Positions 8,113-51,546 of a stretch of 64,000 bases of DNA are shown here, piece by piece; the stretch's first letter is position 1, and each line of letters opens with the position of its first letter. The translations under genes were made by a program, and so were the position numbers. The notes beneath the pieces were generated by a model, which ran no database searches, was not told where the DNA came from, and saw only the letters and a list, made by a program, of their open reading frames with translations. This DNA comes from Candidatus Bathyarchaeia archaeon (lineage in GTDB: Archaea; Thermoproteota; Bathyarchaeia; 40CM-2-53-6): assembly GCA_035935655.1 (NCBI GenBank), contig DASYWW010000062.1, forward strand, positions 124,001-188,000, given 5' to 3'.

Positions 8113-11100
8113 CTAGGATCGGGGTCCTCGTAGCCAGGCTCGGATACCTGTCTCCTCAACGTCAATGACTAATGGCTGAGCCTGGTGTGTCATCTGTTGG
8201 CCGAATGAGTTGACGAAGCGGATTGTGGGCTGTAATGTGTATTTGCCCGGATGATCTGGCCGAGCCTGCAAATCTATTTGCAACGTCTCCAGTGGGGAGA
8301 GTCGTTTGCCGCTCAGGTTCAGGATTCCAGCGTGGACCGTCTTTTCAGTCTCGCTGGTCCTAACTGTCAGTCCGGACTGAGAGAGATTTTCTACGCTGAT
8401 GAGACTAATACGTGTCTGGCTTGGATTCAGGATGGTCAGCGTCAGTTGGGCAGGTTTTTCGGGATAGAGAGGGCTCACGGGTGCGCGCAGGGCCGCGTGA
8501 AGGAGTGGGCGATCTGCCGTCTGGTGAATAATTGTCTGATTCAGCGCTGTCGGTGTGACGATGCCTGTTGTGGACTGTGCGATTGAGGCTGCCGGTATCG
8601 GGCCCACCGTGAGGGTTGTGTGTTTTTCCGATATTGATTGTAACAGACGTTCGGCATCGTCCTTCCGTGCCGTGTATCCGGCACGTTGGAACATTTCTAT
8701 GGCTTGGTGAGTCTGCTCTTCGGCTTGGCGGTACAGATTGTCGCGGTCTGCTTGAATGAGAGTAGACTCGGCCTCAGCAAGGTAGGCGACCGCGTCGTAC
8801 ATGCGCCCAGTTGCAGCAAGCCATGAGACGCTTGACGTGGACCCTGCGTCTGTAAAATTGCTGTGGGCGATTGCTAGATATTTTTTCATCTTCTGGAATT
8901 CTGTTGCCGCGAGGTTGTCTTTGTAGTGGATGCCGATGGCTAGGGCTCGGCAACAGGCAGCCCAGCCTCCGAGGAGCGAGGATACCGAACGGGTCTTGGA
9001 TGTTTTTTTTGCCTCGTCGAAGAGTAAGGCAGCTTGGTCATAGTGCTCTGCTCTTAGGGTCTGTTCCGCTTCGAGCATTGCCTGGCTCGCACGACAGATA
9101 AGTGCGTGTCCACGCATCATGTCTCGGGTCTCAGGATCGTCGTATGCCCTTGCAAGCTTGTCGAATTGGTCGGCTGCTTTTGAGAGTTGGTTGATGCTTT
9201 CGGCGAGTTGTCCCTGTCTTTCTAGGAGGTGGGCTCGATCGAGAAGGACACGTGATTCCGCATATTCCCTGCCAAGAGTTGCAAGGCTGCGCCAAGAGGT
9301 CGTTTGGTCAGTTGCATTTACGGTGGAAGCGTCTAACCATTTTTCAGCTCTGGAAAACGTGTCGACGGCCATCGCCAGGGTCTTGCTAGAGAGTTCGGGA
9401 TCTGTTTGATTCTGCTCTTCCGCTTTCGATGTCAGAGCCCATGCCTCGAAGAAGCTTGATAGTGCCTTGGACGCGTTTGTCAACTCGAGAGTCTTGCTGG
9501 CTTCACGATAATGTTCGACTGCGGATTTGTAGTCGCTCTTGAGGTAAGCAGCTTGTGCAAGAGTCGCAGAGGCTCTTGATTCCAGTCGTTGGGCTTGATC
9601 GTGAAAGTCTGAAGCTAAACCGGGATATTTTGTGGCTGCTTCCTCGTAGCACTTTGCAGCGTCGAGAAATGTTCCGTTTGCTTTTTCGAATTTCCCCGCG
9701 TGAACGTAGGCTTGGCCGAGCTTGATGAGGGATTCTGCTGCTCGAGTTGGAAGCGTTTGGTTCCTTGCAAACTCGTTGCTTTGTTGGAGGTTTCTCAGGG
9801 CCTCTTCGTTCAGGTGAGGGTCGCGGGTTTCCTGGTAGAGGTCGAGCTGGGCGCTCGCAAGGTCGTACAGGTATTTGGCAAGTATTCTTTGTTTCAGGCC
9901 GGGGTCTAGTGCGAGAGGGCTGTTGAGGACGCTTCGCGCCGTGTCTGTTGCCTTCTGAAACATGCTAACTGATTCGGTTAGGACCTTTTCCTTGTCTGCG
10001 TCAGAGAGTCGGGCTGTCTCGCGTTTGATCTCTCCGTAAAGGTAGAAGTGTTCTGCGTCTCCCCAATCCCAGTGTGAGTAGAATTGCTTCGTGCTTTGCT
10101 CGTACACGAGGCCGGCCTTCCACGCCTCGTCTAGAGTCCTTTTCTTCTGCTCATTCTCCTCTAGTGTGGCAAGGTAGTATAGGTAGAATCCGAGGTTGCT
10201 ACTCTGGTTAGCTATCCCGGTGGGTGGTGATTGTTCGGCGATCTTCCGACTGATCTCCACCGAGTCTCTAACGAGACGGATGCGTTCTTCTTTGGTCTTG
10301 GGAAACCATCGAGAATAGAACGCCACAATGTCGCCCATAGTCCACAGGATGTAGCCTGGGCTGTTGCGGAGTCGGCGAACTCCTCCGAAGTATCGTAGTT
10401 CTTCCAGCCCTCTGGCGGATTCCTCCTTGCTCTTTCGTAGGAAATTTGTGGCTTCGCCTGGGTCTTCGAGCGCTGATAACTCATCGAGGTATGATCGTAG
10501 TTTTGCGGCTAGCTGGCTGCCGAGCGCCAGATGGTCATCTGTAGCGCTGACCTTGGCGAGGTATTCTGTTGGGTCGATGATAGGCGGGGTTGTCGGGAGA
10601 AGGTACCAGGACTCGATCTGGTCCCATAGCGCTTGGGCAGATATCCTTGGATCGGCGGGCTCTTTGATCTGGTGTCGTAGTGTCTCGAATTGTTCTATCG
10701 CTTTGTTTCCAGCGGTCTCTCGATCTTGGTACTCCGGTAATTGGGTCCACGCAAACTGGTGAGCATCGATTTGTTCAATGATTAGGAGTTGTTGTTGGTC
10801 CCTGTTGAGGTTGGCATAGAATGGTCGCGTTGGGTCTGATGCTCGTAGGCTTTGTTCTAGGGCCGGGAGCCGGGTTAGAATTTTTGGGTCGTAGTTCTGG
10901 AGGTCGTTGGAGATGATGAGCATCTCGAGAGGAAGGGTCGGAGCTATTTCGTTGGCTCGCGCAGGATCGGCGGTCCATCCTTCCATGAGTGCCCTGAAGG
11001 CTTCATGCAGTTGAGTGAGGGCTTGGCCGTTGTCGACTGCGGTTTGGGCGGTACAGTATTTTGATAGGCCATTGTATCGGGCTGCTATGATCTGAGAATT

Positions 11101-11358
11101 ATTCTGAACGGCTTTCCCGGCTCGTTCGAACTCGCTTGCTGCGAGAAGCATGAGCCTGTTGAACTGGTCATGTCGAACTGTTTGAAAAGCGGCTTGAAAA
11201 TGGCAGTGGGCAGAGTAGCGCCAATTGTTATGCGCTCCAGAGCTGTTCGTCCAGGAGCTATTCGTGTCCTCTAATTCTCGTGCTTGGTCTAGCCAGCGGT
11301 AATTGTGACTGGGAGCTGGGTTATCGTCCGGATTGCGCCCGATTGCCGTCCAAGACAA
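8113..11358 (-). CDS. Large TPR-like solenoid protein with C-terminal Ig-like domain
   Basis: This 1081-residue protein is almost entirely helical. It has many TPR-like pairs (for example A-x-x-x-L-x-x-A-A-x-x-Y/F spacing, ALRNLQQSNEFARN, EKANGTFLDAAKCYEEAA) from about residue 30 to 900. Residues about 940-1065 form a beta-sandwich of the adhesion or CARDB-like type (YPEKPAQLTLTILNPS). No signal peptide or membrane helix is visible, so it is probably a cytoplasmic scaffold. It starts with TTG at 11358. The last residues, GIRAWLRGPRS, closely match the tail of the unrelated hydrolase ending at 50631. Partners are unknown. Confidence 0.8.
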   Translation of the reverse strand: MSWTAIGRNPDDNPAPSHNYRWLDQARELEDTNSSWTNSSGAHNNWRYSAHCHFQAAFQTVRHDQFNRLMLLAASEFERAGKAVQNNSQIIAARYNGLSKYCTAQTAVDNGQALTQLHEAFRALMEGWTADPARANEIAPTLPLEMLIISNDLQNYDPKILTRLPALEQSLRASDPTRPFYANLNRDQQQLLIIEQIDAHQFAWTQLPEYQDRETAGNKAIEQFETLRHQIKEPADPRISAQALWDQIESWYLLPTTPPIIDPTEYLAKVSATDDHLALGSQLAAKLRSYLDELSALEDPGEATNFLRKSKEESARGLEELRYFGGVRRLRNSPGYILWTMGDIVAFYSRWFPKTKEERIRLVRDSVEISRKIAEQSPPTGIANQSSNLGFYLYYLATLEENEQKKRTLDEAWKAGLVYEQSTKQFYSHWDWGDAEHFYLYGEIKRETARLSDADKEKVLTESVSMFQKATDTARSVLNSPLALDPGLKQRILAKYLYDLASAQLDLYQETRDPHLNEEALRNLQQSNEFARNQTLPTRAAESLIKLGQAYVHAGKFEKANGTFLDAAKCYEEAATKYPGLASDFHDQAQRLESRASATLAQAAYLKSDYKSAVEHYREASKTLELTNASKALSSFFEAWALTSKAEEQNQTDPELSSKTLAMAVDTFSRAEKWLDASTVNATDQTTSWRSLATLGREYAESRVLLDRAHLLERQGQLAESINQLSKAADQFDKLARAYDDPETRDMMRGHALICRASQAMLEAEQTLRAEHYDQAALLFDEAKKTSKTRSVSSLLGGWAACCRALAIGIHYKDNLAATEFQKMKKYLAIAHSNFTDAGSTSSVSWLAATGRMYDAVAYLAEAESTLIQADRDNLYRQAEEQTHQAIEMFQRAGYTARKDDAERLLQSISEKHTTLTVGPIPAASIAQSTTGIVTPTALNQTIIHQTADRPLLHAALRAPVSPLYPEKPAQLTLTILNPSQTRISLISVENLSQSGLTVRTSETEKTVHAGILNLSGKRLSPLETLQIDLQARPDHPGKYTLQPTIRFVNSFGQQMTHQAQPLVIDVEETGIRAWLRGPRS

Positions 11359-12288: not shown

Positions 12289-12464
12289 TCCTAGGATGAT
12301 GAGCGCGAACCCTAGTGTTTAGAGAGATTTCAGATCACCCCATGACAACGTCGGACCTTATCCGCTACGGGACAAGGGAGATGTGTAGAGAAACGTCGAT
12401 CGGTCTTGCCTTGGACATGCATATGCGTGATAGGTCGGACTTTGCATTGTTATCGTGACAAGCA

Positions 12465-34998: not shown

Positions 34999-35820
34999 AT
35001 GACTGGCCAGCAACAAAGTGCATGGAATGATTACGGCGGTAGTGGGCCAGAAATCTATGAGCGTTACATGGTCCCATCTCTCTTTGGCCCTTGGGCAGTA
35101 GACCTTGTCAAGTTAGCCGCTCCTGTGCGAGGTGAAAGCGTTCTCGATGTAGCGTGTGGAACGGGAATTGTAGCCCGACTTGCAGCCCAACACTCAGGCC
35201 CGATGGGGAAGGTTGTTGGGTTGGATCTTAACCCTAGCATGCTAACAGTTGCCCGCTCAGCATCTGCAGGAACAGAGAGTATCGAATGGCGAGAAGGTAA
35301 CGCGATGGCCTTGCCTTTTTCTGACAAAACATTCGATCTGGTTTTGTGCCAACAAGGGCTGCAGTTCTTTCCTGACCGTCTTGCTTCCTCAAAGGAGATG
35401 CACCGTGTTTTGGTTCCCGGTGGAAGGCTTGCCCTTAGTGTTTGGACTTCTATCAGCAATTGTCCCGGGTTCCAGTCCCTCACAGAAGCGTTAGCAAATC
35501 ATATTGGCTCAGAGGCAGCCGCATTTATGCGGTCGCCCTTTAGTCTGGCAAGTGAAAGCGAATTGCGCTCTCTGGTTGAGAGGGCCGGATTTCATAACGT
35601 GAAAATCCATACAGCATTCAAGGGATTGTTCTTTCCGTCTCCGGATGAGTTCGTCAAGCGTTATGTGGCGGCATCACCTTTAGGGCCCATGGTCGCTAGA
35701 GCAGAAAGCAGGTCTCAGCAAGCGTTGCTTGAGGATGTGAGTGAGGCTCTCCAGTCTTGTGTCAACGACGATGGGTTGACATTTCCCATTGAAACGCATT
35801 TTGTGCTTGCGAAGACCTAG
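34999..35820 (+). CDS. Class I SAM-dependent methyltransferase (UbiE-like)
   Basis: This 273-residue enzyme has motif I VLDVACGTGIVARLAAQ, then GLDLNPSMLTVAR and DLVLCQQGLQFFPD. The last two carry the SAM-binding acidic residue and motif IV. The later MHRVLVPGGRLALSVW is also typical of UbiE/menaquinone-type methyltransferases. The substrate may be a quinone precursor or other small molecule. It is placed directly after the CBS-domain gene. Confidence 0.87.
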   Translation: MTGQQQSAWNDYGGSGPEIYERYMVPSLFGPWAVDLVKLAAPVRGESVLDVACGTGIVARLAAQHSGPMGKVVGLDLNPSMLTVARSASAGTESIEWREGNAMALPFSDKTFDLVLCQQGLQFFPDRLASSKEMHRVLVPGGRLALSVWTSISNCPGFQSLTEALANHIGSEAAAFMRSPFSLASESELRSLVERAGFHNVKIHTAFKGLFFPSPDEFVKRYVAASPLGPMVARAESRSQQALLEDVSEALQSCVNDDGLTFPIETHFVLAKT

Positions 35821-50630: not shown

Positions 50631-51546
50631 CTATTTCTTTGGTCCTCTGAGCCAGCCTTTGACGCCTAACTCCTTCGCTTTCGAAGACCGTTCGGGTCCT
50701 GTCTCTTTCACCCCTAGAAATCGTCGGGTCTCGATTAGAAAGTCCTTCCACGCTGGCTCGTCCTCCAGCAACAGGTGATTCTTGCTCTCCAACGGGATGA
50801 AGTGGGCTCCGCGAATCAATGTTGCTAGGTCTCTTCCATCCTCGAACCGGTTTACCAGGTCGCCTCGCGTGTGGACGACTAGTGTTGGGGTTGACACTTT
50901 GTCGAGCTGGTCGAGGACGTCGATCTGGGCGAACTCTATCAGGTAGCGCACTGCGTTTTCTGGCGACGTGGATTTTCGCTGCAACTCGTTGAACCAGTTT
51001 GCCTGCTCGGCCGTCCCTCCTGGAACGAATAAAGATGTAAACAGTTGACGGTAGGTCGGGTCGTCCTTTCCCCAACCCATCTTCATCAGCGTCACCATGG
51101 CCTTTCCCTCTTCCTGTTCGGCAGGCGACGTATGGATTTTCGACCAGCCCAACGCACTCGCACCGTATAGAATCAGATGACTCACCCTCTGAGGATGGCG
51201 TGCAGCGTAGGCGATGCTGACAGCGCCTCCCTGAGACATCCCCAGCAATGCGAATTTGTCAAGGCCCGCGGAATCCACAACCGTTTCCAGGTCATGCACC
51301 CAATCCTGAAAGTTAGAACTCTTGACCTCGCGGTCGGATAGCCCACACCCCCGATCATCATAACGGACCAATTCACTGTATTTTGACAGCTCCCTGATCC
51401 AGTGACGAAATATTGGACTTTCCAAGTCGAACTGCAAGTGCCCGAGCCAGTTCGCAGCCTTGACCAGCGGAGGCCCATGACCTATTGTGGAGTATGCAAG
51501 TCTGACACCGTCCCTTGTAGTGCAGAATCTAATCTTCTGTTCCAGA
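50631..51546 (-). CDS. Alpha/beta hydrolase with basic C-terminal tail
   Basis: The protein has the nucleophile elbow LLGMSQGGAVSIAYA (Ser), catalytic Asp in VVHTRGDLVNRF and His near SKNHLLL. Its N-terminal region (IRFCTTRDGVRLAYSTIGHG, then ANWLGHLQFDLE) is typical of a family with close bacterial members. The canonical start at TTG 51437 removes this region. The only suitable upstream start is CTG at 51546, 24 bases from a TATA-like AAATAATA (51566-51574). After a linker the protein ends in KGWLRGPKK, a tail shared with the TPR protein ending at 8113. Confidence 0.8.

Follow-up and report, generated by a model that had tools for sequence, protein, structure and literature searches.

A putative portable docking peptide on unrelated, mostly sensor-type proteins in a family of Bathyarchaeia

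Introduction

Why would two proteins that otherwise have nothing in common end in nearly the same residues? This question is raised by a stretch of 64,000 nucleotides (here termed the window) of contig DASYWW010000062.1 from Candidatus Bathyarchaeia archaeon (GenBank assembly GCA_035935655.1). An initial annotation, made from the sequence alone, had noticed there that an alpha/beta-hydrolase ends E-L-G-V-K-G-W-L-R-G-P-K-K and a TPR protein E-T-G-I-R-A-W-L-R-G-P-R-S, and had proposed a docking peptide, a localisation signal or a degron used by a common partner. To our knowledge, the signalling of these archaea has been little studied, and no paper containing the motif strings or the combinations of terms tried was found in the open text of PubMed Central.

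The shared tail in the window

Both tails are indeed present at the ends of the two open reading frames, and the features concerned are the following:

50631 to 51545, minus strand: alpha/beta-hydrolase, LipJ-like, with Ser motif GMSQGG; start inferred from orthologs
50640 to 50666, minus strand: putative docking motif GVKGWLRGP at the hydrolase C-terminus, followed by residues KK and the stop
8113 to 11358, minus strand: TPR giant of 1081 residues, in which the helical TPR region precedes a beta-sandwich domain and the tail comes last; the C-terminal 359 residues were modelled
8122 to 8148, minus strand: putative docking motif GIRAWLRGP of the TPR giant, C-terminal except for residues RS before the stop

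The hydrolase frame reads KAKELGVKGWLRGPKK before its stop codon (final residues KELGVKGWLRGPKK), and that of the TPR giant DVEETGIRAWLRGPRS (final residues EETGIRAWLRGPRS). That the proteins are otherwise unrelated holds as well, as the best local match between them in BLASTP is the tail itself (E = 0.006) and nothing else is common to both. The hydrolase resembles the lipase-cyclase LipJ, with a score far under the LipJ family cut-off. Its first standard start codon is a TTG at 51437 (ORF 50631 to 51437, minus strand), and judging from orthologs, translation probably begins at a CTG at 51545. Neither this gene nor a TolB-TPR gene with an N-terminal motif (contig C46, locus L109) shows ATG, GTG or TTG where its start would be expected, and CTG starts are likely for both.

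At the DNA level, a pattern for WLRGP occurs three times in the window, with 0.13 occurrences expected, and two of these are the tails of the hydrolase and the TPR giant. The third match, at 35573 on the plus strand, belongs to a 35-residue chance ORF and was discarded. As a strict string, WLRGP is C-terminal in only these two proteins of the whole genome; the exact pentamer therefore understates the observation, and a test narrowed to it would have dismissed the observation altogether.

The motif and its bearers in the genome

The tail can be described by a motif of nine residues, G-[IVL]-x-[GA]-W-[LI]-[KR]-G-P, with three hydrophobic residues, with glycines and a proline that are invariant, and with G, W and P constrained at fixed spacing. 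About 0.009 matches would be expected anywhere in a proteome of the size of the one encoded by this genome (G000), given the composition of the long ORFs of the window. With the relaxed pattern G-[ILV..]-x-x-W-[LI..]-[KR..]-G there are 15 matches in the genome versus 4 for the reversed pattern; if P and [GA] are required, the numbers are 8 versus 0, and if two base mismatches are allowed, 38 versus 12.

Matches read in context amount to 11 bearers in this genome, eight with a C-terminal motif, two with an N-terminal one and one with the motif inside a domain; the reading covered only some of the eight two-mismatch places without a locus. The C-terminal motif is found in three hydrolases (C62:174641, C62:40037, C40:23832), three TPR giants (C62:132123, C37:75561, C46:133744), a KaiC-fold protein (C39:51079) and a TolB-TPR protein (C37:56666), and the N-terminal motif in two other TolB-TPR proteins (C46:137948, C37:89346). 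The internal case is a STAND AAA_16-TPR ATPase of 930 residues (C62:212172), the single protein of its kind, which has the motif inside its AAA domain. A match inside a long ORF at C52:8801 (ALEGWLTGP) was counted as chance, as the first glycine is missing. The label TolB is our own assumption for the part with an IAVLPF signature and does not reflect a Pfam hit; what Pfam detects in the TolB-TPR proteins are the TPR repeats. The Pfam domains of all bearers, including those from other genomes, are hydrolase, TPR, KaiC, AAA_16 and FIST, and the bearers look like regulators, i.e. unrelated, mostly sensor-type proteins.

The hydrolase paralogs at C40:23943 and C62:39554 each have the same small-protein neighbour, presumably with a lamin-tail domain, and represent a duplicated gene pair.

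Distribution across genomes

A tail that is no more frequent than by chance in related proteomes would have refuted the initial annotation, yet the motif matches 46 times in 12 of the 21 genomes of the family, and the reversed pattern not once. These matches comprise 17 KaiC-fold proteins, 10 hydrolases, 7 TolB-TPR proteins with a C-terminal and 4 with an N-terminal motif (one of the latter in a broken gene), 6 TPR giants (one frame-broken), one out-of-frame copy behind a GNAT gene and one chance match. Among the 40 C-terminal copies, 38 end at most 6 residues after the proline, and two KaiC-fold proteins extend 19 and 37 residues past it. The out-of-frame copy, GISAWLKGPKKK, lies near position 12348 of G006:C41 (L102), directly behind the GNAT acetyltransferase gene, and this gene may be an additional, frameshifted bearer.

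Outside the family, 17 genomes of the same order gave no pattern match. In a sample of 398 genomes from the phylum, eight match: three belong to the family, two have FIST proteins and three were read as chance; the FIST proteins, from another family of the class, end GIGIKGWIKGPAEE and GIGIRGWIKGPAEE. A scan of genome contigs with a K-only pattern yielded 42 stretches: 27 long archaeal ORFs that bear the motif, one small frame and 14 chance stretches, the last all in bacterial records. According to the record titles, 25 of the 27 ORFs are from Bathyarchaeota or Crenarchaeota, one is from Thermoplasmata and one from Euryarchaeota, and these last two are TPR giants that end with the motif (two euryarchaeal genomes). 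The match in a thaumarchaeal record (L153, Thaumarchaeota nzgw5) is a small frame ending KERGIKGWIKGPSS, which follows the in-frame stop of a neighbouring gene that we take to be DUF309-like. No matches were found in viral contigs.

The two proteins of the window do share the tail, as had been claimed, but they are only a part of its bearers, which belong to at least six protein families; likewise, the extreme C-terminus is the usual position of the peptide, but not the only one.

Most TPR homologs at other loci and in other genomes end with GISGWLKGP, and the motif is present in 6 of 6 genes whose match extends to the C-terminus; the homolog L045, which has a different C-terminus, lacks it. 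In case of the hydrolase, the tail is kept in all 8 close orthologs and in 4 of 4 unfused paralogs (about 54% identity) despite differing linkers. Two further homologs (56%; G016:C29 L031 and G013:C61 L032) have a C-terminal AAA ATPase domain instead of the tail, and it is possible that this fused domain is a pointer to the partner.

Selection and structural context

The tail is a selected peptide. Ten KaiC-fold orthologs, which were found by their whole sequence, have pN = 0 at pS = 0.50 in the nine codons of the motif, and a pN/pS of 0.36 in the linker and 0.07 in the domain. The tail is present in each of 18 close KaiC-fold homologs, and such homologs are found in exactly the 12 tail-bearing genomes; 13 distant homologs whose ends were read stop at the domain edge without a tail. 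The distant genome G020 has 12 KaiC-fold matches, and the two with ends read have no tail. For the 8 close hydrolase orthologs, pN/pS is 0.28 in the motif versus 0.13 in the linker, and the motif is thus no more constrained there, because positions 3, 4 and 7 vary (K/R, G/A/S and R/K).

The KaiC-fold protein is modelled as KaiC/RecA, with KaiC and PH0284 as best PDB matches; this model rests on a shallow alignment of 10 sequences and is of moderate confidence (mean 69.6), with linker and tail (residues 252-269) at pLDDT below 50. The last 359 residues of the TPR giant, modelled with only 6 sequences in the alignment, form helices and a beta-sandwich, and residues 349-359 are below pLDDT 50; a PDB sequence search with this C-terminal region gave only weak matches. 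Both models place a short helical turn at the tail tryptophan, and if they are correct, the tail sits outside the folded domain in both proteins.

Relation to class III cyclases

Strong matches to PF00211 were found in 9 of the 21 genomes, namely in 8 of the 9 tail-less but in only 1 of the 12 tail-bearing ones. Fisher's test gives p = 0.0004 for this exclusion, or 0.008 if the weak matches near 1e-4 in G003 and G008 are counted. The genomes are not independent, because the tail/cyclase label needs just two changes on a tree of FtsZ-like proteins. The only tail-bearing genome with strong matches is G006, in which three of the four cyclase genes lie on one contig of 6.4 kb, possibly due to a binning error, and G020 is a tail-less genome that also lacks strong matches. 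The genome of the window, G000, has no match to PF00211.

Some of the cyclases are attached to modules that resemble bearers. Among 30 cyclase loci, 11 combine cyclase and TolB signature in a single ORF, with the cyclase first, and the three TolB-TPR proteins of G000, which have no cyclase, align to such cyclase-TolB-TPR fusions (39-50% identity) over a stretch that begins approximately at the TolB part and reaches the end. A hydrolase-cyclase fusion was found in the tail-less G001. LipJ-type hydrolase-cyclases and cyclase-TolB-TPR sensors have the same sensor modules as the bearers. What distinguishes the bearers is that they have either no cyclase or a dead one and possess the peptide, which in several cases lies close to the position of the cyclase.

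The weak match in G003 is itself a cyclase-TolB-TPR protein, in which FTD is changed to FTE, IGD is lost and NVASR has become AVASK. These are, as we assume, metal and substrate residues of the cyclase, and from its sequence this domain is dead; an intact class III domain is thus found neither here nor in G000. The catalytic hairpin of the G003 protein has a 26-residue insertion that holds GVGLKGWLTGP, and it was only the cyclase model, not the motif, that retrieved the protein. It is possible that this dead cyclase with its peptide is an evolutionary intermediate. A STAND gene near the cyclase-like gene of G008 was sought and is not there, and the internal STAND case therefore stays single.

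Discussion

What is the function of the tail? The explanation that we favor, with a probability of roughly 0.6, is that it serves as a portable docking peptide on diverse sensors for one shared partner, and probably replaces a fused class III cyclase output. KaiC-fold proteins, TPR giants, TolB-TPR proteins, the STAND AAA-TPR ATPase, LipJ-like hydrolases and FIST proteins would present the motif on a flexible end or a probable domain loop and would thereby bind a common hub or effector in trans. The peptide would have replaced the covalent cyclase domain that TolB-TPR and hydrolase modules still have in sister genomes, and the partner would have taken over the output of sensors without a cyclase of their own. 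Docking to one partner explains the data best because all observed positions can expose a peptide and there is no common host domain, and the near-exclusion with cyclases together with the G003 protein suggests that the partner assumed the lost output. That the contact is between proteins, that all bearers have a single partner and that this partner supplies the lost output is inferred, and there are no binding data. Some observations count against parts of the model. In one TolB-TPR subfamily, the motif and the former cyclase position are at opposite ends, no cyclase-fused relative of the KaiC-fold and TPR-giant bearers was seen in the genomes examined, and the cyclase exclusion comes down to about two evolutionary events, with G006 having both features and G020 neither. 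Moreover, no common gene was recognised in the bearer neighbourhoods that were read, and the idea of a shared operon partner is unsupported.

A precedent for such docking exists in chemoreceptors. According to PMC7390727, the Trp-containing C-terminal peptide NWETF sits on an unstructured linker of these sensors and recruits a shared enzyme (CheR/CheB), and the pentapeptide consensus, which is mostly acidic, has W at position 2 and F at position 5. What the two have in common is a short Trp peptide that terminates an unstructured linker in sensor proteins. The columns of the present motif do not fit this consensus; NWETF is mostly negative and occurs on chemoreceptors only, whereas our motif is basic, belongs to at least six other families and is also N-terminal and internal. 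No bearer is a methyl-accepting chemoreceptor by its Pfam domains. By analogy, the tail may work like the NWETF tether without being a member of that family.

The conserved C-terminal peptide of FtsZ has a consensus of hydrophobic, aromatic and basic residues that are spaced similarly to the present motif. A relation to this peptide was rejected, as none of the FtsZ-like C-termini that were read has the motif and most end with PLYQMEQ or similar; FtsZ-like proteins were matched in 20 of the 21 genomes, none above the family cut-off. The FtsZ-like proteins of the family (L179 and relatives) have a conserved C-terminus of their own, PLYQME, PLYEME or PLFQME.

What alternatives exist for docking to a partner? 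The main rival is a targeting or cargo peptide that sends the bearers to a common compartment or scaffold. According to PMC7355545, encapsulin cargo-loading peptides have about ten residues, occur at C- or N-termini and are common to unrelated proteins, and our motif meets this description. However, the encapsulin peptides are found on iron and redox enzymes next to a shell gene, whereas the present bearers are sensor-like and share no recognised neighbour gene. None of them is a typical cargo such as a ferritin-like protein or peroxidase, visual inspection of the bearers' neighbours in eight listed regions of G000 revealed no recognisable shell gene, and the motif also occurs inside domains. 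We consider this reading unlikely; the localisation signal of the initial annotation cannot be excluded, but docking, which was also among its proposals, fits better. Its third proposal, a degron or stability tag recognised by a protease adaptor, agrees less with the data, since copies are also found at N-termini and inside domains. Degrons commonly are C-terminal hydrophobic tags, and regulator-like bearers would be plausible targets, but a simple degron would not need the fixed spacing of G, W and P, and this function thus seems quite improbable. Even less can be said for a membrane anchor or other lipid-binding segment: I, W, L and the basic residues as well as the helical turn in the models would be compatible with it, but three hydrophobic residues, beside invariant glycines and a proline, are few, and the insertions inside STAND and cyclase domains do not agree with it. 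That there is no common function at all, only chance and inheritance, would account for orthologs that have the tail from one ancestor, but it is already contradicted by the counts, i.e. six or more families with different folds at about 0.009 expected chance matches per proteome, 46 matches versus none for the reversed pattern, and exclusively silent changes in the motif codons of the KaiC-fold family, which leaves it with practically no credence.

If the peptide indeed docks to one partner, a larger step can be considered, which we put forward only tentatively and hold to be somewhat doubtful: this soil lineage of Bathyarchaeota may have moved its signalling from a covalent to a modular organization, in which built-in cyclases were lost and the same plug peptide came to serve one hub. 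Nine residues, gained terminally or within a loop, would then be enough for any protein to join the pathway. Its hub would represent a new kind of signalling centre in archaea and could be reached directly with a peptide bait. This short code word marks an entire group of archaeal regulators at once and predicts one reader protein, and its history would be a case in which evolution exchanged a fused output domain for a plug peptide.
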